Assembly (NCBI RefSeq): GCF_013520985.1
Contig: NZ_JACDTY010000021.1
Coordinates: 1 to 64,000, forward strand
From: Mesorhizobium neociceri
GTDB lineage: Bacteria; Pseudomonadota; Alphaproteobacteria; Rhizobiales; Rhizobiaceae
Reading direction: 5' to 3'
Length of the DNA stretch: 64,000 nt
Shown: positions 3,140 to 12,705 of the stretch, piece by piece
How positions within the stretch are numbered: position 1 is the stretch's first letter
Layout of the letters: every line of letters starts with the position of its first letter
Made by a program: the position numbers and the translations under genes
Notes under the pieces: model-generated
The model's input: the letters and a program-made list of their open reading frames with translations, nothing else
Database searches by the model: none
What the model was told of the DNA's origin: nothing

Positions 3140-3788
3140 GCGACGATCCCGAGACGGCACGCCAGATCGCCGAACTTGCAGCCGACGACCGGCCGCTGTT
3201 GATCCTCGACGTCGATGATGTCGTGCTCGAATTCATCCGGCCATTTCCGCATTTCCTGAAATCGCGCGGCTTTGGGCTCACACTGGCCTCCTTCCGCCTC
3301 ACCGGCAACATCGCCGAAACGGCGAGCGGCCGGCTGATCGAACAGCCGGAGGTGACGGCACTGCTTGGCGATTTCTTCGACGCGCAGGCCGACTGGCAGA
3401 GCGTCACCGACGGCGCCGAACAAGCGCTTGCCAGTCTCGACGGCCGCGCCGAGATCGTGCTTTTGACCGCCATGCCGCACCGCCATCGCGCGGCGCGCCG
3501 CGCCCATCTCGACGCGCTCGGACTGCCCTATCCTCTGTTGACCACCGAAATGGCCAAGGCCCGGCTGTGGCCAAGTTGCGCGGTAGCAAAGGCCGGCCGG
3601 TGGCCTTTGTCGACGACCAGCCCTCCAACCTCATCTCGGCGCGCAATTCGGTCGCCGACATCAATCTCTTCCATCTGATGGCCGACAACTCGCTGCGCGC
3701 TTTCATGCCGCCGGTGCCCGACGACATCATTTCAGTCGAGGATTGGCGCGACGCCGCGCCGAAAATAGCGAGCGCGCTCGGGCTCTGA
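3136..3788 (+). pseudogene. HAD-like hydrolase gene with a one-base frameshift
   Basis: The first part (3136 to about 3560) encodes a HAD-type protein with the motif-I-like LLILDVDDVV (acidic residues at 25, 27, 28) and a motif-II-like LLTAMP. After EMAKA the frame turns to low-complexity Ser/Thr/Arg sequence. The proper C-terminus, with AFVDDQPSNLISARN (motif-IV-like acidic pair) and ending ASALGL, continues in the frame one base earlier. One extra G in the run near 3556-3562 would restore a continuous ~217-residue protein. Either the gene is recently broken or the assembly has a single-base deletion. It is coupled to the DUF3572 gene by an ATGA overlap. Confidence 0.75.
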
Positions 3789-3811
3789 CCCAAGCTTCAC
3801 AAGCCTGAAGA

Positions 3812-5332
3812 TCAGGGCTGCAGCTTCGCCCCTGCCCCGCCGCTATTGCCCTCGCCGGGGCTAGCATCCTGACCGTCTTCCACGACCGGATCGGGCCCTT
3901 TCAGCATGGCGCCGTTGACCGTCACCGACCCATCGTGCTTCGCGTTGATCACCCATTCAATCCGGCCATCCGGCAGCGCCTTGGCAAATCCCTTGATGGC
4001 CAGCGCGCCGGTAAAAGCCTGCGAGGCCTGCGGGTCGGTCTTCGCCGCCTCCTGCAGGCTTGCCACGATCGTGTCGTAGCCGGTTACGTCGATCGTCACG
4101 TTGGCGTCGGGCTTCTTGCCGGGGAAGGTCATTTCGCCTTCCATGGCGACCTCGATGTCGCCGTTCTTAACCGTGCTGTGTCCAAGTACGAACTTTGGTG
4201 TCTTGGCCAGGAAATCGGCGGAAATCTCATCGCCGAAATCTGCCGGAAGCGGTGGATCCTTACTGAAATCGAGGGTTTCTATGGTTTTCCTCGCCATACT
4301 GTCGAGATCGATGTTGGCGCCGCCGAAATTCAGGTCGAGATCCGTCGGCAGCAGCGCAACGCTCCAGCTTGGCAGCATCTGCTGCGGCACCGTCAGGCCG
4401 GAGGCCTTGATGGCGTAGTTGATCTTGCCGTCCTTGGCGATGCCGTCCATGCCGACTGAGGTGCTCAGTTGCGCGGCACCGAACTTGCCGACCGGGCTTT
4501 CCACCTCAAAATCCTTGAAGCCATAGGTGCCATCGATCCGCTCCCACAGCGGCAGTGCGGCCGTCAGAAGCGACTTGAACTCCACTTCATTCGCCTTGAG
4601 CTTGGCCTCGTCGTCGGTGGCCGCAATGAAAGCAAACAGGTCGAGCAACGCCTTTGTCCGCAAACCCTTGCCGGTCGCATCCACGGAAAGTTCCGGCGCT
4701 TTTACAGCCAGCGGCAAACTCAGCCCTTTTTCGGGATCATTGACTTTGACCGTTTCGACGAAGTTCGCCAGCTTTTCCGAGGCCGTGAAATCGATGCCGC
4801 CATTCGCGGATTTGGTCGAAGCTAATGTTGCGGTGCCAGAGCCGATGCTGACGTTTGCCTGTTGCTTGGTCTCCCGGATCGCCATCGTCATGCCGCCTAT
4901 CGAGACGTTTGCGCTCGCGAAAGCGGCCAGATCGGGGTCATAAACTCCATTGAATTTATGGTCCGATATCGAGACATCGACGTGCTGCGGCCCTTCAGGA
5001 CCAACGAAATCAAAGGATCCCTTTGGAGACACCTCCATCGAAACGTCCCACCGAGCGTCCTGGCGTGGCTTGACCAGCATGGCGTACGGCGTGAGGTCGA
5101 ACTTGAAGGCCTGCTGCGTTGCCAGCATTTCCGCCAACGGCTTGAAGTCGAACGCAAGCTTGTAGGCATCGCCTTCGACGGAGACTTTTACAAATCCAAT
5201 GTCGAACGGCTTCTTGCCGAAATAGTGCGCCAGATTGTCGGAAAGCTGCTGCGCGCCCTGGCTGTCGACCGTCTGGCCAAACGCCGGCGCACTGCAGGCA
5301 AGAAGCAGAACAAATGGCAATACGCGCTTCAT
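3812..5332 (-). CDS. Exported protein of unknown function, tandem paralog A
   Basis: The 506-residue protein starts with a clear signal peptide (MKRVLPFVLLLACSAPAFG, cleavage near residue 20), so it is exported to the periplasm or beyond. The mature part is Gly/Asp/Lys-rich with alternating hydrophobic residues, suggesting extended beta structure. Blocks such as LPLWERIDGTYGF and SWSVALLPTDLDLNFGG recur in the adjacent paralog. I do not recognise the family and see no catalytic motif. Paralog B at 5519 shares the signal peptide, length and the C-terminal GAGAKL-P ending, so the two are tandem duplicates. The ATG at 5332 is chosen because it begins the signal peptide. It converges with the HAD-like gene. 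Confidence 0.82.
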   Translation of the reverse strand: MKRVLPFVLLLACSAPAFGQTVDSQGAQQLSDNLAHYFGKKPFDIGFVKVSVEGDAYKLAFDFKPLAEMLATQQAFKFDLTPYAMLVKPRQDARWDVSMEVSPKGSFDFVGPEGPQHVDVSISDHKFNGVYDPDLAAFASANVSIGGMTMAIRETKQQANVSIGSGTATLASTKSANGGIDFTASEKLANFVETVKVNDPEKGLSLPLAVKAPELSVDATGKGLRTKALLDLFAFIAATDDEAKLKANEVEFKSLLTAALPLWERIDGTYGFKDFEVESPVGKFGAAQLSTSVGMDGIAKDGKINYAIKASGLTVPQQMLPSWSVALLPTDLDLNFGGANIDLDSMARKTIETLDFSKDPPLPADFGDEISADFLAKTPKFVLGHSTVKNGDIEVAMEGEMTFPGKKPDANVTIDVTGYDTIVASLQEAAKTDPQASQAFTGALAIKGFAKALPDGRIEWVINAKHDGSVTVNGAMLKGPDPVVEDGQDASPGEGNSGGAGAKLQP

Positions 5333-5434
5333 ATCGATCCTCCACTCTATTGCGGCCGTCAAAACCGTTTCTGCCACTGGTAGGGAAATACCATCACAGC
5401 CGCAAGACAAGACCCATGGGATTGCTGGCGGCTG

Positions 5435-5510
5435 CTACAGCGCCAGCCGCATCAGCGGCCGGCCGGCCTTGCGTTCGACAAGCCGCTCGAAGCCGGCCTT
5501 TTCGAATACC
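5435..5510 (-). pseudogene. Relic of the 3' end of a GNAT acetyltransferase gene
   Basis: These 76 bases match about nine in ten positions of 7102-7177, the last 25 codons of the intact acetyltransferase gene, including its TAG stop. Translated on the minus strand it reads VFEKAGFERLVERKAGRP and ends LMRLAL, against VFEKAGFDRLVERKAGRP and LMRLVL in the intact gene. It starts just upstream of paralog A and ends a few bases from the stop of paralog B. It is best read as a scar of a tandem duplication that carried the end of the acetyltransferase gene along with the exported-protein gene. Confidence 0.85.
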
Positions 5511-5518
5511 GCAAGCGC

Positions 5519-7036
5519 TCAGGGTTTCAGCTTCGCCCCTGCCCCGCCTCCATCCGGAACGGTAGCTTTGCTCGGATCGAAAATGGAGTTATCCTGCACG
5601 GCATCGGCCGGCTTCAACATGGCGCCGTTGACGATGATCGAGCCGTCGGCCTTGGCGACCACCACCCACTCCAGTCGGCCGTCCGGCAGCGTTTTGGCAA
5701 ATCCTTTGACGGCGAGTGTAGCCGGGAAAATCTCAGCAGCCTGCGGGTCAGTCTTGGCGGCTGCCTGAACAGCCTGCACGATCTTGTCGTAGCCCGCGAC
5801 GTCCACCGTCATCGTCGCATCCGGTTTCATGCCCGGGAACGTCATCTCGCCTTCCATCGTCACTTCGACGCTGCCGTTCTTCACTATGCTATGCCCGAGC
5901 ACGATCTTCGGGTTGTTCGCCATGAAATCGGCGGCCAAAGCATTGCCAAACTCGTCCGACAGCGGCGGATCCTTATTGAGATCAAAAGCTTCGATCGCTT
6001 TTTTCGCCATCGTATCGAGATCTATGTTGGCGCCTCCGACGTTCAATTCGAGATCGGTGGGCAGCATGGCGACGCTCCAGCCTGGTACAAGTTGCGGGGG
6101 AACGGTCAGCCCCGCCGCCTTGATGCTGTAGTCGATCTTTCCATCGTTGGAGATGCCGCCGATGCTAGTCATTACACTGAAATCTCTGAGCCCAAAATCA
6201 CCCCGTGCCGTTGCAAAGGTCACGCCCTCGAAGCGATAGGACTCTTCCAGCCGCTCCCACAGGGGCAATGCACTTGTCAGCAGTGATTTGAGCTCGGCCT
6301 GATTTGCCTTCAGTGAGGCTTCGTCCTGGTTGGCGACGGCAAAACCGAGAAGATCGAGCAACGCCTTCGTGCGCACGCCATTCCCGGTAATCTTGGCCGA
6401 CACCCTAGGTGACTTCATCGTGAACGGCACTTTCAGTCCCGTCTCATCTTGGTCAACCATGGCCGTTTCGACGAAATCAGCGATCGTCTGCGTCACGGCA
6501 AAATCAACGCCGCCGCCTGCGGATTTGCCAGCAGCCAAGATCGACGTTCCGGCGCCGACGCTGAGGTCCATAGGCTCCTTGGGATCTCTGGACGCCACTT
6601 GCATGCCGGCCATCGAGCCCGCCCCGCTGGTGAAAGCTGCCAATCCCGGATCGTAGATGCCGCTAAATGCGGAGCCGGAAACGGAGAACCGCGCCCCGTG
6701 CGGCCCCTCGACGTCGACGAAGGCGTTGGGCGTTAGATCTGACGACACGCTCCAGCTTCCGTCGTTGCGCGGTTTGACCAGAATCGCAAATGGCGCGAGG
6801 TTAAATGTCAGAGGGTCCTTGCGGGGATTTGCCCTAAGCACTGCATTGAAGTCGAGGGCTATCCGATATGCATCGCCGTCGGCCGAAATCTTCAGAATGC
6901 CGCTGTCGAGCGCCTTCTTGCCAATGTAACGCGACAGATTATCCGACAGCTGCCTTGCACCTTGACTATCGACAGCCTGCCCCCAGGCTGGCGTACCGAT
7001 TGCGAGCAGCAAAACAAATGGCAAAACACGCTTCAT
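5519..7036 (-). CDS. Exported protein of unknown function, tandem paralog B
   Basis: The 505-residue protein begins MKRVLPFVLLLAIGTPAWG, nearly the same signal peptide as paralog A, and follows the same pattern throughout. Shared blocks include VDSQGA-QLSDNL, GNGVRTKALLDL (GKGLRTKALLDL in A), LPLWER, GWSVAMLPTDLELNVGG and EVTMEGEMTFPG. Divergence between the copies is substantial, so the duplication is not recent at protein level. Function is unknown; export is the only property supported directly. The start at 7036 places the signal peptide at the N-terminus, four codons after an upstream in-frame GTG. The gene lies 65 bases after the acetyltransferase stop. Confidence 0.82.
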   Translation of the reverse strand: MKRVLPFVLLLAIGTPAWGQAVDSQGARQLSDNLSRYIGKKALDSGILKISADGDAYRIALDFNAVLRANPRKDPLTFNLAPFAILVKPRNDGSWSVSSDLTPNAFVDVEGPHGARFSVSGSAFSGIYDPGLAAFTSGAGSMAGMQVASRDPKEPMDLSVGAGTSILAAGKSAGGGVDFAVTQTIADFVETAMVDQDETGLKVPFTMKSPRVSAKITGNGVRTKALLDLLGFAVANQDEASLKANQAELKSLLTSALPLWERLEESYRFEGVTFATARGDFGLRDFSVMTSIGGISNDGKIDYSIKAAGLTVPPQLVPGWSVAMLPTDLELNVGGANIDLDTMAKKAIEAFDLNKDPPLSDEFGNALAADFMANNPKIVLGHSIVKNGSVEVTMEGEMTFPGMKPDATMTVDVAGYDKIVQAVQAAAKTDPQAAEIFPATLAVKGFAKTLPDGRLEWVVVAKADGSIIVNGAMLKPADAVQDNSIFDPSKATVPDGGGAGAKLKP

Positions 7037-7101
7037 CTTGACCCCCATTTTGAACGCAAAAACGCTTCAAGCATTGATAGTAAGATACCGTCACAACCAC
7101 A

Positions 7102-7677
7102 CTACAGCACCAGTCGCATCAGCGGTCGGCCTGCCTTGCGTTCGACAAGCCGGTCGAAGCCGGCCTTTTCAAACACACGCGACGAGCCGACGAACAGCCC
7201 AATCGAGCGCGAATCGCGTGACACGTCGATCGGGCAGGCCTCGACCAGCCGCGCTTTGTTCTGGCGGGCAAAAGCGATGCCGCCCTCGACCAGACGATGG
7301 CTGATGCCCCTGCCGCGTGCATTGGCGCGGATGAAGAAGCAGGAGATCGCCCAGACGCCCGGATCGCTGGCGTCGGACGGATCGACCGGCGCCGAGCCCC
7401 TGCCCCGATTGTTCCATTCGGGCACGTCGGCGCGTGGGCCGATCTGCATCCAGCCGACCGCTTGGCCACCCTCGAAAGCCAACAGCCCCGGCGGCGGCCC
7501 GGCCTCGATACGCGTCTTGATAAGATCCCTGTTGCGCTGCTTGTCGCTGCCGCGCCGCGCCGCCGGGGCCAGCCGGAAATAGGTGCACCAGCAGCCGTAA
7601 CAGGCGCCCTGCTTGCCGAAGAGATCCTCGAAATCCGCCCATAGTTCGGGCGCCAGCGGCGCTATGGTCGTGCTCAT
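7102..7677 (-). CDS. GNAT family N-acetyltransferase
   Basis: The 191-residue protein has a GNAT fold. The acetyl-CoA pyrophosphate-binding motif is seen in FFIRANARGRGISHRLVEG (R-x-x-G-x-G/A type), preceded by the strand GVWAISCFF, and the C-terminal VFEKAGFDRL element is typical. The Cys-rich N-terminal segment GACYGCWCTYFRL is found in a subgroup of uncharacterised GNAT proteins. The substrate cannot be told. A good ribosome-binding site (GGGAGAG) precedes the ATG at 7677. A longer open frame extends upstream through antisense dinB, but the ATG at 7677 gives the natural start. A relic of its 3' end lies at 5435-5510. Confidence 0.88.
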   Translation of the reverse strand: MSTTIAPLAPELWADFEDLFGKQGACYGCWCTYFRLAPAARRGSDKQRNRDLIKTRIEAGPPPGLLAFEGGQAVGWMQIGPRADVPEWNNRGRGSAPVDPSDASDPGVWAISCFFIRANARGRGISHRLVEGGIAFARQNKARLVEACPIDVSRDSRSIGLFVGSSRVFEKAGFDRLVERKAGRPLMRLVL

Positions 7678-7737
7678 GCGTTCTCTCCCGGCTAACCGCG
7701 CTTGTAGCGGCTTCCGTCCTGACGTACCATTGCATCT

Positions 7738-7752
7738 GTTCTCTTTATGTTC
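7738..7752 (+). promoter_or_regulatory. Probable LexA (SOS) box GTTC-N7-GTTC at the dinB start
   Basis: GTTC at 7738-7741 and GTTC at 7749-7752 are separated by exactly seven bases. GTTC-N7-GTTC is the established LexA operator of rhizobia and other alphaproteobacteria. It lies immediately before the favoured dinB start codon (7759), and DinB polymerases are classic SOS genes. The site overlaps an alternative ATG at 7747, which argues that 7759 is the real start. Confidence 0.7.
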
Positions 7753-7758
7753 GCAGCG

Positions 7759-9075
7759 ATGGCGGCCCCTGTCAACAATCCCGAGCACGGTTTTTGCCGC
7801 GACTGCCTGACCCTTCAGCGCAGCGATGTCAGACGCTGCGAGTGCTGCGGCAGCCCCCGGCTGGCCCGTCATCCCGAGCTTTATCGCCTGCATCTCGCCC
7901 ATATCGATTGCGATGCCTTCTATGCGGCGATCGAAAAGCGCGACAACCCGGCGCTGAAGGACAAGCCGCTGATCATCGGCGGCGGCAAGCGCGGCGTCGT
8001 CTCCACCGCCTGCTACATCGCCCGCATCAAGGGCGTGCGTTCGGCGATGCCGATGTTCAAGGCGCTCGAAGCCTGTCCAGAAGCGGTCGTCATCCCGCCC
8101 AATATGGAAAAATACGTCCGTGTCGGCCGCGAGGTGCGCGCGCTGATGCAGGCGCTGACGCCGCTGGTCGAGCCGCTTTCCATCGACGAGGCATTTTTGG
8201 ACCTTGCCGGCACCGAGCGCCTGCACGGCATGCCGCCGGCAGTGGTGTTGGCGCGCTTTGCGTTGACCATCGAAAAGGAGATCGGCATCACCGTTTCGGC
8301 CGGCCTCTCCTACTGCAAGTTCCTGGCCAAGGTGGCGTCCGATTTCCGCAAGCCACGCGGCTTTTCGGTGATCGGCGAGGCCGAAGCGCTGGGTTTCCTG
8401 GCCGAGCAGCCGGTGACGTTGATCTGGGGCGTCGGCAAGGCTTTCGCCGCGACGCTCGAACGCGACGGTATCCGCACAATTGCCCAATTGCAGCGCATGG
8501 AGCGCGCCGATCTGATGCGCCGCTATGGCGTGATGGGCACCCGGCTCTACCATCTGTCGCGCGGCCAGGATGACCGCCGTGTCGACCCCGACCAGGATGC
8601 AAAAAGCGTCTCGGCCGAAACCACTTTCGATACCGACATAGCTGAAATGGATGAACTGGTTCCGGTGCTGCGGGGGCTGTCTGAAAAGGTCTCGGCCAGG
8701 CTGAAGAAGTCAGGCATTGCCGGGCGCACCGTAGTGCTGAAGCTGAAGTCGCAGGACTTCAAGCTGCGCACCCGCAACCGCCAGCTCGGCGACCCGACAA
8801 GGCTGGCCGACCGCATCTTCCAGACCGGGCTCGACCTCCTGCGCAAGGAAGCGGACGGCACGAAATACCGATTGCTCGGTATCGGCGTCAGCGATCTCTC
8901 GGATGACGAGAAGGCCGACCCGCCCGATCTCGTCGACGTCGGCTCGCGCAAGCGCGCCATGGCCGAAAGCGCCATCGACACGCTGCGCGACAAGTTCGGC
9001 AAGAAGGCGGTGGAAACCGGCTACACCTTCGGCAGAGGCCGCAACGCCAACCCGCCCGAGCCGATCGAGGATTGA
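7759..9075 (+). CDS. dinB: DNA polymerase IV (Y-family translesion polymerase)
   Basis: The 438-residue protein is a Y-family polymerase that bypasses DNA lesions at the cost of accuracy. Catalytic motifs are [17 protein letters not shown] (metal-binding Asp50) and SIDEAFLDL (Asp143, Glu144); the little-finger region follows to about residue 390. Ahead of the polymerase core is a Cys-rich element with CRDC near residues 13-16 and CECCG near 27-31, which looks like a small zinc ribbon and is common in rhizobial DinB. ATGs at 7747 and 7759 are possible; I prefer 7759 because the first lies inside the LexA box and MAAPVNN..GFCRDC matches the usual N-terminus. Induction by DNA damage is inferred from the operator. 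Confidence 0.93.
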
Positions 9076-9085
9076 CGCTCTGGGG

Positions 9086-9592
9086 TCAGATGCGCTGCAG
9101 ATCGATGCGGCTCGTCACCACGCTCTTGCCGGTTTTCGGATCGACGTCGGTCACAGTCAGTCGCATTCCGTCGCCGCTGGTTTTCTCGACCGTCAACCGC
9201 GCCTTGCGGTCGCCATTGACCTCCGTCGCCCAGCTAATGCCGAGATTGATCGCGTTGCCCGAGCGGCTGCCGGCGAGTTGCGCAGGACCGGTGCGCGATC
9301 CGACATAGACGCCGGTGTACTTCGCCCCGCTGGCCTTCAGATCCGCGCTGATGGCGCGCGTCACCACGACAAGACCACGGCAGTTGCCGTCAAGCGACAA
9401 TGAGGTCGAGGTCGCGTCGGAATTGAAAGTACAGGAGACATTCACCGTCGGTGCGTCGGTGGTGACCTTGACAATTCCTCTTCCGGCAAAATTTCCCTGG
9501 AACGAGCGCAGGAAATCAGCCTCGTCGGCACGAGCGTCCGCCGCAGCCATCAAGCAACCGGCAAGGACAAAGCATGCTAGTGATTTCATCAT
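9086..9592 (-). CDS. Small secreted protein of unknown function
   Basis: The 168-residue protein begins MMKSLACFVLAGCLMAAADARA, a signal peptide with possible cleavage after ADARA. The mature part has a single-domain beta-rich look, with two cysteines (VSCTFN and DGNCRG) that could pair after export. I do not recognise the family. A truncated second copy lies just upstream at 9767-10042 on the same strand, sharing blocks such as MRLTVTD-DPKTGK and VVTSRIDL. The start at 9592 is preceded by GGGGGAGAG, a strong ribosome-binding site. It converges with dinB, 10 bases apart. Confidence 0.75.
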   Translation of the reverse strand: MMKSLACFVLAGCLMAAADARADEADFLRSFQGNFAGRGIVKVTTDAPTVNVSCTFNSDATSTSLSLDGNCRGLVVVTRAISADLKASGAKYTGVYVGSRTGPAQLAGSRSGNAINLGISWATEVNGDRKARLTVEKTSGDGMRLTVTDVDPKTGKSVVTSRIDLQRI

Positions 9593-9728
9593 ACTCTCCC
9601 CCGGGACGTATTGGAGATGCCACGCGTCCAGCGAAGCCGGCACCACGCAGACCTAGAACGCCTGCCCGCAAAACGGGTTCCGCTTTCAATATGACTGTTT
9701 TTGACGCCGCCCGGCCCAGTGCTGGCCG

Positions 9729-9757
9729 TTCGAATGCGTCGACTGGCGGTTGCGGCG
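9729..9757. repeat. 29-bp direct repeat, left copy
   Basis: This segment runs from TTCGAATGCG to GGTTGCGGCG. It matches 11769-11797 except for about three bases. The two copies have the same orientation and bracket the truncated secreted-protein gene and the acyl-CoA ligase gene. It lies 10 bases beyond the stop of the truncated copy. Confidence 0.6.
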
Positions 9758-9766
9758 GAAGCCAAC

Positions 9767-10042
9767 CTAGGTGCGGTTGAGATCGATCCTGCTTGTCACG
9801 ACCGTCTTGCCGGTCTTGGGATCGATGTCGGTCACGGTCAGGCGCATGGCGTCGGCGCCGATCTTCTCGACGGTCATCTGGGCGTCGCGATCGCCATTGA
9901 CGATCTTTGCCCAGCGGATGTCGAGGTTGATCGCATCGCCGGTGCGGCTGCCGCTGAGTGCCGCCGGTCCGCTTTTGGAGCCGACATAGGTGCCGCTGTA
10001 GGTCGCTCCGCTGGTCGTCAGATCGGCGCGGATTTCGCGCGT
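9767..10042 (-). pseudogene. Decapitated paralog of the small secreted protein
   Basis: The last ~90 codons (from IRADLTTSGATYSGTYVGS to SRIDLNRT) align without gaps to the C-terminal half of the protein at 9086, at roughly two thirds identity. Upstream of about 10042 the similarity fades: the frame continues through Arg-rich sequence with no signal peptide and no matching N-terminal half, though a GNC triplet at the corresponding place suggests a few more residues survive. The promoter and start seem lost, and the upstream neighbour is a divergent acyl-CoA ligase. Most likely a gene fragment, not an expressed protein. Confidence 0.7.
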
Positions 10043-10150
10043 CCGGGATCGGCGCCAGTAGCAGTTACCGAGGCGATTGTGGCAGTGCCTTGACCTCGGC
10101 ATTCCGCCGTTGTTTGCTGGCGGGCCTGATGATCGATCCGGGGGTGGTCC

Positions 10151-11707
10151 ATGTCTATCGCTGGCATTCTCGATCGGGCAGCCCGGATTGCACCGAACGC
10201 TGTTGCGATTGCACACGGACCCCGCGCGCTTCACACATATGCGGCGCTGAAAGCCCGCTCGGAGGCAATTGCCGGATTCCTCAAGAACCGGTTGAATCTG
10301 GCCGCAGGCGAACGCGTCGCACTCCTGATGAAGAATGCGCCCGAGTACGTCGAGGTGATGTTCGGCATCTGGAAAGCAGGCTTGGTCGCCGTGCCGATGA
10401 ACGCGAAGCTGCATCCCCGGGAAATAGCCTACATGCTGGAGCATTCGGGCACGACGGCGGCATTCGTGACGGTCGACCTTGCCGGCGCGCTTAACGAGGC
10501 GGGGCGCTCTGTCCCGGGGCTAAAGAGCATCATCGACGTGGCGAGCAGCGAGTACAGCGATGCGCTGAAATGCGAAGCGGTCGAAGGCCGATGGGCGGCC
10601 CTTCCTGAAGACTTGTGCTGGCTCTTTTACACGTCAGGTACCACCGGCCGTCCGAAGGGGGCTATGATCACCCATCGCAACATACTGGCAATGTCCGCCA
10701 GCTACTTCATTGACATCGACACGATTGCGCCGGGCGATTCGATCCTGCACGCGGCACCCATGTCGCACGGCTCGGGGCTCTACATCTTTCCTCATGTGTT
10801 GGGCTTGGCTACTCAAATCATCCCCGAATCAGGCGGCTTCGATCCGCTGGAAATTCTTGAACTGGCTAAGGTACATCAGAGACTCAGTCTTTTCGCGGCG
10901 CCGACCATGGTGCACCGGCTCGTCAATCATCCGGCAATTGGCGACTTGGATCTGTCGGGGCTGAAAACGATCATCTACGGCGGCGCGCCCATGCTGGTGG
11001 AAGACGTCAAGCGCGCCCTGGATGTGCTGGGTCCGCGCCTTGCGCAGTTGTACGGCCAGGGGGAGGCCCCAATGTGCATCACGGGGCTCGCTAAACGTTT
11101 CTACGCCGACCGCTGGAACCCCAGGTGGGAGGCGCTGATCGGATCGGCAGGCTTCCCGCAAGCTGTCGTCGACTGCGCGGTGATGGATGCAGACGACCGG
11201 CCGCTGCAAGCCGGCGAGATGGGCGAGATCTGCGCGCGTGGCGAGTCGGTGTTCGCCGGCTATTGGCAGAACGAGGAAGCTAGCGCGGCCGCGCTACGCA
11301 ACGGCTGGCTGCATACGGGCGACGTCGGGGTCATGGACAAGGACGGGTTCCTGACTCTGCTCGACCGATCGAAGGACCTGATCATCTCCGGCGGCAGCAA
11401 CATTTATCCTCGGGAAGTCGAGGAGGTGCTGCTGAAGCACGAGGCGGTCTCTGAAGTTTCGGTTGTCGGCCGCCCTCACGCCGAGTGGGGAGAGGAGGTT
11501 GTCGCCTTTGTCGTTGCAAGGCCCGGCAGCAACCCGACAGCAGCCGAACTTGACGCCTTGTGCCAAAACCATGTCGCACGCTTCAAGCGGCCAAAGGCTT
11601 ACCGGTTCCTCGCCGAGCTGCCGAAATCAAGCTATGGGAAGACCTTGAAGCGCGAACTGCGCGACATGCTGGCGGAGGAAACTTCGCGCGACACTGCGGT
11701 GAATTAA
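10151..11707 (+). CDS. AMP-dependent acyl-CoA synthetase/ligase
   Basis: The 518-residue protein belongs to the ANL superfamily, activating a carboxylic acid to an acyl-adenylate and then to the CoA thioester. The P-loop-like signature is FYTSGTTGRPKGAMITHRN (about residues 159-177). LYGQGEAP, then GWLHTGDVG, then LDRSKDLIISGGSNIYPREVEE are the later core motifs, and the catalytic lysine region SYGKTLKRELRD is near the C-terminus. Length is normal for medium/long-chain or aromatic ligases; the substrate cannot be read. It is divergent from the truncated secreted-protein gene. Codon choice appears slightly less GC-extreme than in neighbours, and the locus is bracketed by a 29-bp direct repeat, so acquisition by transfer is possible. 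Confidence 0.9.
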   Translation: MSIAGILDRAARIAPNAVAIAHGPRALHTYAALKARSEAIAGFLKNRLNLAAGERVALLMKNAPEYVEVMFGIWKAGLVAVPMNAKLHPREIAYMLEHSGTTAAFVTVDLAGALNEAGRSVPGLKSIIDVASSEYSDALKCEAVEGRWAALPEDLCWLFYTSGTTGRPKGAMITHRNILAMSASYFIDIDTIAPGDSILHAAPMSHGSGLYIFPHVLGLATQIIPESGGFDPLEILELAKVHQRLSLFAAPTMVHRLVNHPAIGDLDLSGLKTIIYGGAPMLVEDVKRALDVLGPRLAQLYGQGEAPMCITGLAKRFYADRWNPRWEALIGSAGFPQAVVDCAVMDADDRPLQAGEMGEICARGESVFAGYWQNEEASAAALRNGWLHTGDVGVMDKDGFLTLLDRSKDLIISGGSNIYPREVEEVLLKHEAVSEVSVVGRPHAEWGEEVVAFVVARPGSNPTAAELDALCQNHVARFKRPKAYRFLAELPKSSYGKTLKRELRDMLAEETSRDTAVN

Positions 11708-11768
11708 TTCCAGGCCGCAGGGTGACGCTCTCGACCGTGAGGACGATCAGCCGGATGACGGTGGCCCA

Positions 11769-11797
11769 GTCGAATGCGGCGACTAGCGGTTGCGGCG
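11769..11797. repeat. 29-bp direct repeat, right copy
   Basis: Right-hand partner of the repeat at 9729-9757, from GTCGAATGCG to GGTTGCGGCG. It lies 61 bases after the acyl-CoA ligase stop and 26 bases before the preferred start of the EamA transporter. If an upstream ATG at 11755 were used, this segment would encode part of the transporter's N-terminus. Confidence 0.6.
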
Positions 11798-11823
11798 CGG
11801 CCGTGGTCTTGCGACATAGCGCC

Positions 11824-12705
11824 ATGGTCCCTGCTCCCTCGATCCCCAAGGCCGCGTTCTGGATGGCGCTGTCGATCGCCTCGTTCCTGGCGATGTCGGT
11901 CGCCGGCCGCGCAACGACCGCCGAGCTCAACGTCTTCCAGGTGCTCGAACTGCGCTCGGTGATCGGCTTTTTCATCCTGTTGCCGCTGGTGATGATGAGC
12001 GGCGGTTTCGCCGCGATGCGCACGCAGCGGCCGCTGGCCCATATCGCCCGCAACGTTATCCACTATACCGGCCAGGCGGCATGGCTCTATGCACTGACGC
12101 TGATCCCGCTTGCGGTGCTGATCTCGATCGAATTCACCACGCCGATCTGGACTGCCATCCTGGCCGTCAGCTTCCTTGGCGAAAGACTGTCGCGGCCAAG
12201 GCTGGCGGCGATCGTGCTCGGCCTGATCGGCGTCGTGGTCATCGTGCGCCCCGGCGTCGGCTCCATGGATCCGGGCCACCTTGTCGTTCTCGGCGCCGCG
12301 GTCTGCTTCGGCATCTCGCTGGTGCTGGTCAAGTCGCTGACGCGCACCGACAGCGTCGTGCGCATCATCTTCTGGATGCTGGTCATCCAGTCGGCGGTCG
12401 GCCTCGCGCCGGCGCTTTATGAGTGGCGCAATCCCTCGCTGGCGCTCTGGCCGTGGATTTTCGTCATCGCCTTCACCGGCATGTCGTCGCATTTCTGCCT
12501 GGCGCGCGCGCTCGTCTATGCCGACGCCACCATCATCTCGCCGATGGATTTCCTGCGCGTGCCGCTGTCGGCGCTGGTCGGCTGGCTGCTTTACAGCGAG
12601 CAGATCGACATCTTCACCGCCGGCGGCGCCGCGCTGATCCTGATGGGCAATCTGCTCAACCTGCAGCGCAAGGCCGTGAAACCGGCCGAGGTCGCAGCTT
12701 CGTAG
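11824..12705 (+). CDS. EamA/DMT family transporter
   Basis: The 293-residue protein has about ten hydrophobic segments in two EamA repeats, the plan of drug/metabolite exporters. Segment one begins AAFWMALSIASFLAMSVAG; the first repeat contains LELRSVIGFFILLPL; the second ends with MDFLRVPLSALVGWLLYSE and LILMGNLLNLQR. The exported substrate is unknown. Two starts are possible: 11824 (MVPAPSIPKAA), which leaves a short cytoplasmic tail as is usual, and 11755, which would add 23 residues encoded partly by the direct repeat. Neither has a strong ribosome-binding site. It follows the acyl-CoA ligase in the same direction but probably does not depend on it. Confidence 0.87.
   Translation: MVPAPSIPKAAFWMALSIASFLAMSVAGRATTAELNVFQVLELRSVIGFFILLPLVMMSGGFAAMRTQRPLAHIARNVIHYTGQAAWLYALTLIPLAVLISIEFTTPIWTAILAVSFLGERLSRPRLAAIVLGLIGVVVIVRPGVGSMDPGHLVVLGAAVCFGISLVLVKSLTRTDSVVRIIFWMLVIQSAVGLAPALYEWRNPSLALWPWIFVIAFTGMSSHFCLARALVYADATIISPMDFLRVPLSALVGWLLYSEQIDIFTAGGAALILMGNLLNLQRKAVKPAEVAAS

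Follow-up and report, generated by a model that had tools for sequence, protein, structure and literature searches.

In the T6SS loci of Vibrio cholerae, an incoming effector-immunity module comes to lie beside a conserved upstream anchor, and the resident gene persists at a position further downstream (PMC5361080). A 3′-end remnant can be shifted back as well, scarless replacement was also seen, and internal duplication was argued against because the members of an array grouped with those of other strains (PMC5361080). These modules are the closest published case to the locus analyzed here, with which they share anchored stacking. Unlike in the Vibrio modules, a conserved gene for an acetyltransferase serves as the anchor of our locus, and what varies is a gene for an exported protein with a weak match to DUF2125.

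A second point of comparison is homology-facilitated illegitimate recombination (HFIR), which is usually tied to deletion of resident DNA (PMC3240628). Our locus resembles HFIR in that foreign DNA appears to be joined at one end with little or no homology, the other end perhaps having been guided by homology, and differs from it in that 76 bases were repeated rather than resident DNA deleted. Out-of-register pairing at DNA import also makes tandems in the merodiploids of Streptococcus pneumoniae; there, however, long repeats are involved and the duplications measure ~100 to 900 kb (PMC3784515), whereas in our locus the size is ~1.7 kb and the seam is without a long repeat.

Among the matches listed, titles on HFIR, DUF2125, xenolog tandem displacement and illegitimate recombination in Mesorhizobium did not name this locus. 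The case described below is most likely an instance, on a rhizobial chromosome, of a known type of event, and we know of few seams this legible outside toxin-immunity loci. An apparent duplication in one genome can be the gene versions of two lineages that adjoin, and paralogs counted as in-genome duplications may sometimes be tandem xenologs; a 76-base seam with a stop codon is a mark by which such events could be recognized.

The DNA analyzed (the window) was a stretch of 64,000 nucleotides from Mesorhizobium neociceri. The features of the locus are given here in their minus-strand order, which is GNAT gene, leader A, copy A, 8 nt, scar, leader B and copy B:

7102..7677, minus strand: intact GNAT-family acetyltransferase gene, 191 aa (Acetyltransf_1, 32.9 bits against a cut-off of 20.7)
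7102-7177, minus strand: final 76 nt of the GNAT gene, source of the scar repeat
7037..7101, minus strand: leader of copy A, 65 nt, with a degenerate promoter-like block (7 of 27 positions off the consensus used)
5519..7036, minus strand: copy A, A-type haplotype and mosaic, encoding a 505-aa exported protein with a signal-like stretch at the N-terminus by eye
5511..5518, minus strand: seam, 8 nt separating the stop of A from the scar
5435..5510, minus strand: scar, which repeats the last 76 nt of the GNAT gene, stop codon included
5333..5434, minus strand: leader of copy B, 102 nt, native, with an intact promoter-like block at 5379-5405 (1 of 27 positions off)
3812..5332, minus strand: copy B, encoding a 506-aa exported protein and of the resident type in a sliding comparison with 20 relatives

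The original prediction had claimed that 76 bases of the GNAT end, stop included, recur between two paralogous genes for exported proteins, and both parts of that claim were borne out. The scar differed from the GNAT tail at 8 of 76 positions and was in frame with its own stop (VFEKAGFERLVERKAGRPLMRLAL versus VFEKAGFDRLVERKAGRPLMRLVL). As a direct repeat, 5435-5509 matched 7102-7176 over 75 nt at 91%, with a spacing of 1667, and when the GNAT tail was used as a query against 140 fetched loci the scar of the window was returned as a 75-nt match of 90.7% (E 2e-24). Copies A and B were homologous along their entire length with 55% amino-acid identity, and their leaders were 43% alike. A search of 5400-7300 against its own genome (7.29 Mb, 72 contigs) matched itself and the neighboring copy alone.

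The GNAT gene was present in 140 of 146 genomes, with that of the window counted, and relatives of B in 131 of the 144 genomes searched; named records carrying the exported-protein gene were mostly from Mesorhizobium (80 loci kept of 103), and the genomes searched belong to the same genus as the window. The GNAT regions of 139 relatives were retrieved, making 140 loci with the window. In 131 of these, the retrieved piece contained an exported-protein gene downstream of GNAT; the nine others comprised three pieces shorter than 2 kb and six full ones. One-copy strains, which it had been suggested should be sought for comparison, proved to be the rule, since 128 of the 131 loci had a single copy, including all four species closest by rpoB, and two copies were found in three (the window, G103 and G125). 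In L095, L125 and L184 (G096, G017 and G023) the single copy was divided over two frames. Nine relatives (L072, L077, L081, L083, L089, L115, L116, L120 and L129) had a spacer of 4.3-5.1 kb from GNAT to the exported-protein gene, and the ORFs in the long spacers of L077, L116 and L072 appeared by eye to be sigma-factor-, anti-sigma- and subtilase-like. The spacer of G036 (L068) was 708 nt long and remnant-like.

The nearest relatives of the window by rpoB DNA were G006 and G114 (98%), followed by G138 and G050 (97%), and the same four had the nearest GNAT proteins (92-93% identity). A flank tree of 21 genomes, built from dinB, GNAT, the GGDEF gene and the response regulator, joined the window to these four with a support of 100 and placed G049, G016 and G073 apart from it, with G142.

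Copy A did not follow these relationships. In a tree of 131 proteins, from which pieces shorter than 400 aa had been dropped (six pieces, three loci), it grouped with the one-copy genes of G049, G016 and G073. In codon trees of 27 chosen genes, the 5′ portion of A formed a group with G049 and G016 that left out G073 (100/99), whereas its 3′ portion joined G073 (100/100). In the sliding comparison with 20 relatives, the best matches were native across GNAT up to ~7141, and G049, G016 or G073 were best over most of leader A and A, to ~5641, with the exception of 6001-6120 within A (G003 79%, G002 78%). The best match of the final 120 nt of A was G051 in this comparison. When the final 130 nt were compared, the nearest sequences were G142 (73%), G049 (71%), G048 (70%) and G016 (69%), while G073 stood at 56% and the native copies at 52-65%. 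Leader A had its best match, of 67%, in G049 among 117 leaders.

Copy B was of the resident type toward its ends and mixed between them. It grouped in the protein tree with G051, G054, G131, G100 and G041, and then with G006, G138 and G126. Among the 117 leaders, those of G006 (90%) and G138 (89%) were closest to leader B. The same two genomes matched windows 5221-5460 at 90-97% and continued to 5101 at 89-95% (G006) and 78-88% (G138); they stood at 82 and 81%, respectively, in the seam-spanning window 5401-5520. The middle of B was G051/G054/G131-like, with G041 at its start, 4081-4380 was G050-like, and both ends were native. Since the best matches change piecewise along A and along B, both copies are mosaics.

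The leaders share a 27-nt block (TTGCRGYTGTGRYGGTA... CCTACC), mostly 39-48 nt upstream of the start codon, which was within 7 mismatches of the typed 27-nt consensus in 101 of 131 leaders and beyond this in 30. The block, which was identified by comparing leaders, is probably a promoter that travels with each allele, and we take it to be similar to rhizobial promoters. A promoter and terminator scan of 3700-7800 found no sigma-70-like site by the consensus of the scan.

Synonymous distances (dS) were computed by the Nei-Gojobori method with own scripts. The dS between the scar and its own GNAT tail was 0.30, on ~20 synonymous sites, and that between the GNAT gene and those of four sister species was 0.25-0.29, whereas A and B differed by 1.54. 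The scar looks better conserved than the paralogs, as the original prediction had noted, a contrast best put down to A and B having diverged before they came together. Gene conversion or fast divergence, which had been offered as causes of this contrast, found no support, as A and B belong to different haplotypes, and neither is needed, given the synonymous saturation between the two in their 5′ parts and their large distance overall. The dN/dS of A and of B against near relatives was ~0.2 (for A, in its best-matching parts), from which both copies are apparently kept, and purifying selection looks to maintain them.

The distances of A to its outside relatives were patchy. Against G049, dS was 0.29 in both of the first two fifths of the gene and at least 0.78 in the remaining fifths; against G073, it was 0.32 in the fourth fifth, 0.45 in the last and 0.48 to 1.02 in the others. 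The flanks of the window and the A-type lineages differed by 0.48-0.51, and A as a whole, at 0.59 (G049), 0.77 (G016) and 0.58 (G073), was not below this; the exported-protein genes of G049 and G073 were themselves 0.58 apart. Pieces of A are therefore too close for vertical descent and the whole is not, so that A was either already recombinant on entry or built up by more than one import of A-type DNA. The notion that A as a whole is nearer to outside relatives than core genes are was rejected, as comparison of equal fifths with the whole gene showed this to be true of parts alone.

The haplotype affinities of the two copies, the position of the seam, and an A/B distance that is large against the small scar/tail distance were observed directly. 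The reading we prefer, to which we assign a probability of roughly 0.68 from these sequence comparisons, is that a B-type chromosome acquired A-type DNA through an out-of-register join. Ancestrally, GNAT would have been followed, as in most Mesorhizobium, by one exported-protein gene that had a promoter-like leader of its own, with the gene existing as divergent haplotypes and the resident presumably being swapped now and then for that of another lineage. The incoming A-type segment would have run from the leader through gene A to a few bases beyond the stop codon, probably arriving recently and in a single piece, and the resident would have been kept. If the sequence just past the A stop was fused 76 bases ahead of the resident GNAT end, such an out-of-register fusion would give the order GNAT, leader A, A, last 76 GNAT bases, leader B, B. 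The most likely route is one in which one end was guided by homology, in GNAT or in the conserved leader block, and the other was an illegitimate join. As in HFIR, foreign DNA stands between resident flanks, leader A and large parts of A having their affinities with other lineages, and the junction at the seam (5511-5518) is without extended homology.

The bases around the joins bear on this route. Past the A stop the window reads gcgcttg, as does G016, where G049 has gcgtttg and G073 acgtttg, and where this A-type 3′ flank passes into the GNAT tail no more than about 3 nt are shared, by eye. Tail positions 10 and 73 separate the sister from the A-type species without overlap, and both tails of the window are native at these positions; position 1 of the scar carries the A-type, donor-like base and position 4 neither. 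As the GNAT tail beside A is native at position 73 of the 76, either the left join lies a few bases from the stop or the donor GNAT was native-like; no A donor with a native-like GNAT was seen. The left join falls between tail position 73 and the leader block, where a short conserved block lies, and it may be a second illegitimate join.

Part of the probability given to xenologous joining belongs to a different and, we believe, unlikely route, in which a re-circularized fragment of GNAT tail and A entered through a single crossover within the GNAT tail and left a partial direct repeat. In PMC3240628, partial duplications in 56 of 60 clones were ascribed in this way to a single crossover by a shortened circle. 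Donor bases would be expected on the inner sides of such a repeat, and the native bases at positions 10 and 73 in both copies speak against a circle with an A-type tail, so that this route works only with a native-like donor GNAT tail. The tail bases leave a join near the GNAT stop, a donor with a native-like GNAT, or a duplication that preceded replacement.

The original prediction had favored duplication of a unit made of the GNAT end and the exported-protein gene. What stands of it is that the GNAT tail was doubled along with the tandem; A and B are probably not the two products, since A and its leader are most like single-copy genes of other Mesorhizobium lineages, and leader B and the 5′ end of B are most like the sister species. 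The copies were neither mutually closest nor as close as the duplicated flank; an ordinary intragenomic tandem duplication would be expected to show one or the other. A modified form, in which the GNAT tail, leader B and gene B were duplicated in the genome and the proximal copy was later replaced by A-type DNA, predicts the native base found at positions 10 and 73 in both tails. Single-copy replacement without a scar also does occur: the dS of the gene was more than twice that of GNAT, with a floor of 0.15, in 58 of 484 close single-copy pairs (GNAT dS below 0.35; 113 of 126 genomes with a full-length GNAT used), and the median gene/GNAT ratio of 1.3 indicates that descent was mostly vertical. 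Against this, two events with a common breakpoint are needed, the imported tract must end almost at the seam, given that the 3′ end of A is non-native and its 7 nt match G016, and no locus with two B-type copies was present among the 140 fetched. We regard this sequence of events as unlikely.

About as unlikely is an older tandem, in which an ancestor of several lineages already had A, scar and B and most descendants lost A or B. The A-only, B-only and double states that this would produce all exist among the fetched loci, and the whole-gene dS of A (0.58-0.77) approaches that of vertical descent, as judged from the flanks. In addition, recombination between the tail copies would remove A tracelessly, so that missing scars say little. 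However, in our reading of the flank tree an older tandem takes several independent losses against one gain, the scar/tail dS is nearer to the sister split than to the flank distance from the A-type lineages, and nested parts of A still need a later import.

The age of the scar is relevant to the same question. Compared with the tails of 137 relatives (two with truncated matches were left out), the scar had 6-7 differences from the four sister species, 7 from G115 and G001, and 8 from G049 and G073, with a median over all of 11; over the first 73 positions, four of 133 other tails were within 7 differences of it. A tail tree of 25 chosen rows placed the scar within the sister clade (85/76), and in that same tree its placement outside the clade was unrejected (AU p 0.39), a lack of firmness that suits an older tandem. 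Because the scar is short and A as a whole is no nearer to outsiders than the flanks are, an older tandem and a duplication followed by replacement both retain some probability, and the sequence favors a recent join. Carriage of the gene by a mobile element was dismissed, as no integrase was found in the inserted unit, where nine overlapping plus-strand ORFs (83-206 aa; in or across 5235-7579) had no Pfam match at E 0.1; a plasmid collection yielded eight records, all below 60% identity (25-30%) and predicted to be non-mobilizable.

Traces comparable to the out-of-register join were seen elsewhere in the genus. G103 and G125 have a C-type copy ahead of B. In G043, of the same flank clade, nearly all of C was lost and the C leader, the C 3′ tip and at least 21 GNAT-tail bases were kept, the latter continuing into an extended GNAT end known from B-type relatives. 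We counted the tandem with a degraded GNAT scrap in these three genomes as one further event. Taken by itself, the scrap is clear in G043, where it matched at 19 of 21 bases (0 of 200 shuffles), and not so in G103 and G125; the scraps of the latter two, which rest on a by-eye alignment with G043, matched at 14 of 21, a level attained by 3 and 5 of 200 shuffles and, at 14-15, by five other spacers. By eye, G071 has the leader and first 42 nt of another copy ahead of its B gene. Short copies of the final 18-21 GNAT bases follow GNAT in G106, G066 and G110, and these may be slippage. Overall, a GNAT-tail copy of at least 16 of 21 bases was found in 5 of 120 spacers (mononucleotide shuffles). It is conceivable, though we consider it doubtful, that the GNAT 3′ end is a preferred joining point at which modules of leader and gene are stacked with the newest beside GNAT, doubles being kept for a time because two variants are useful. 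Were this true, the GNAT-tail scraps in G043, G106, G066 and G110 would be a fossil record of joins.

Residues 209-448 of B had a weak match to DUF2125 (PF09898; 21.4 bits, below the curated cut-off of 24.2), and this domain was found at E 0.01 or better in 9 of 34 aligned relatives; copy A had no DUF2125 match at E up to 1. The predicted fold of B had a mean pLDDT of 84. Foldseek ranked JlpA, a lipoprotein, first for the model (E 0.0025; TM-scores of 0.24 and 0.32), and a second fold comparison returned JlpA again together with beta-barrels and apolipoprotein B (Z 8-13, rmsd 6-12). Neither a fold nor a function was assigned to B from these beta-rich matches, which were considered too loose, and the best E-value in a profile search against solved structures was no lower than 0.098. 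DUF2125 is a neighbor of lipid-transfer families (PMC6791001), and our working guess, by inference, is that the exported protein is a periplasmic, lipid-facing protein.

A second out-of-register mosaic was observed in the window at 9086-11840. Here a complete gene x (9086-9646, minus strand) and then its upstream region are followed by 275 nt from the 3′ part of a different x allele (9769-10043), which were 92% identical to G138 and 76% to the window's own x. After this piece come an acyl-CoA-ligase-like gene (10042-11756, by eye) and, beyond it, one resembling a transporter gene. The two units of a 28-nt direct repeat (9730-9757 and 11770-11797, 93%) lie one on either side. The ligase-like module at 10042-11756 was 98.7% identical to that of G035 and 97.3% to that of G029, where rpoB differs by ~5%, and would have moved recently between species. 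In G029 (L255), the module continues into an additional copy of ~80 nt from the 5′ region of the transporter gene.
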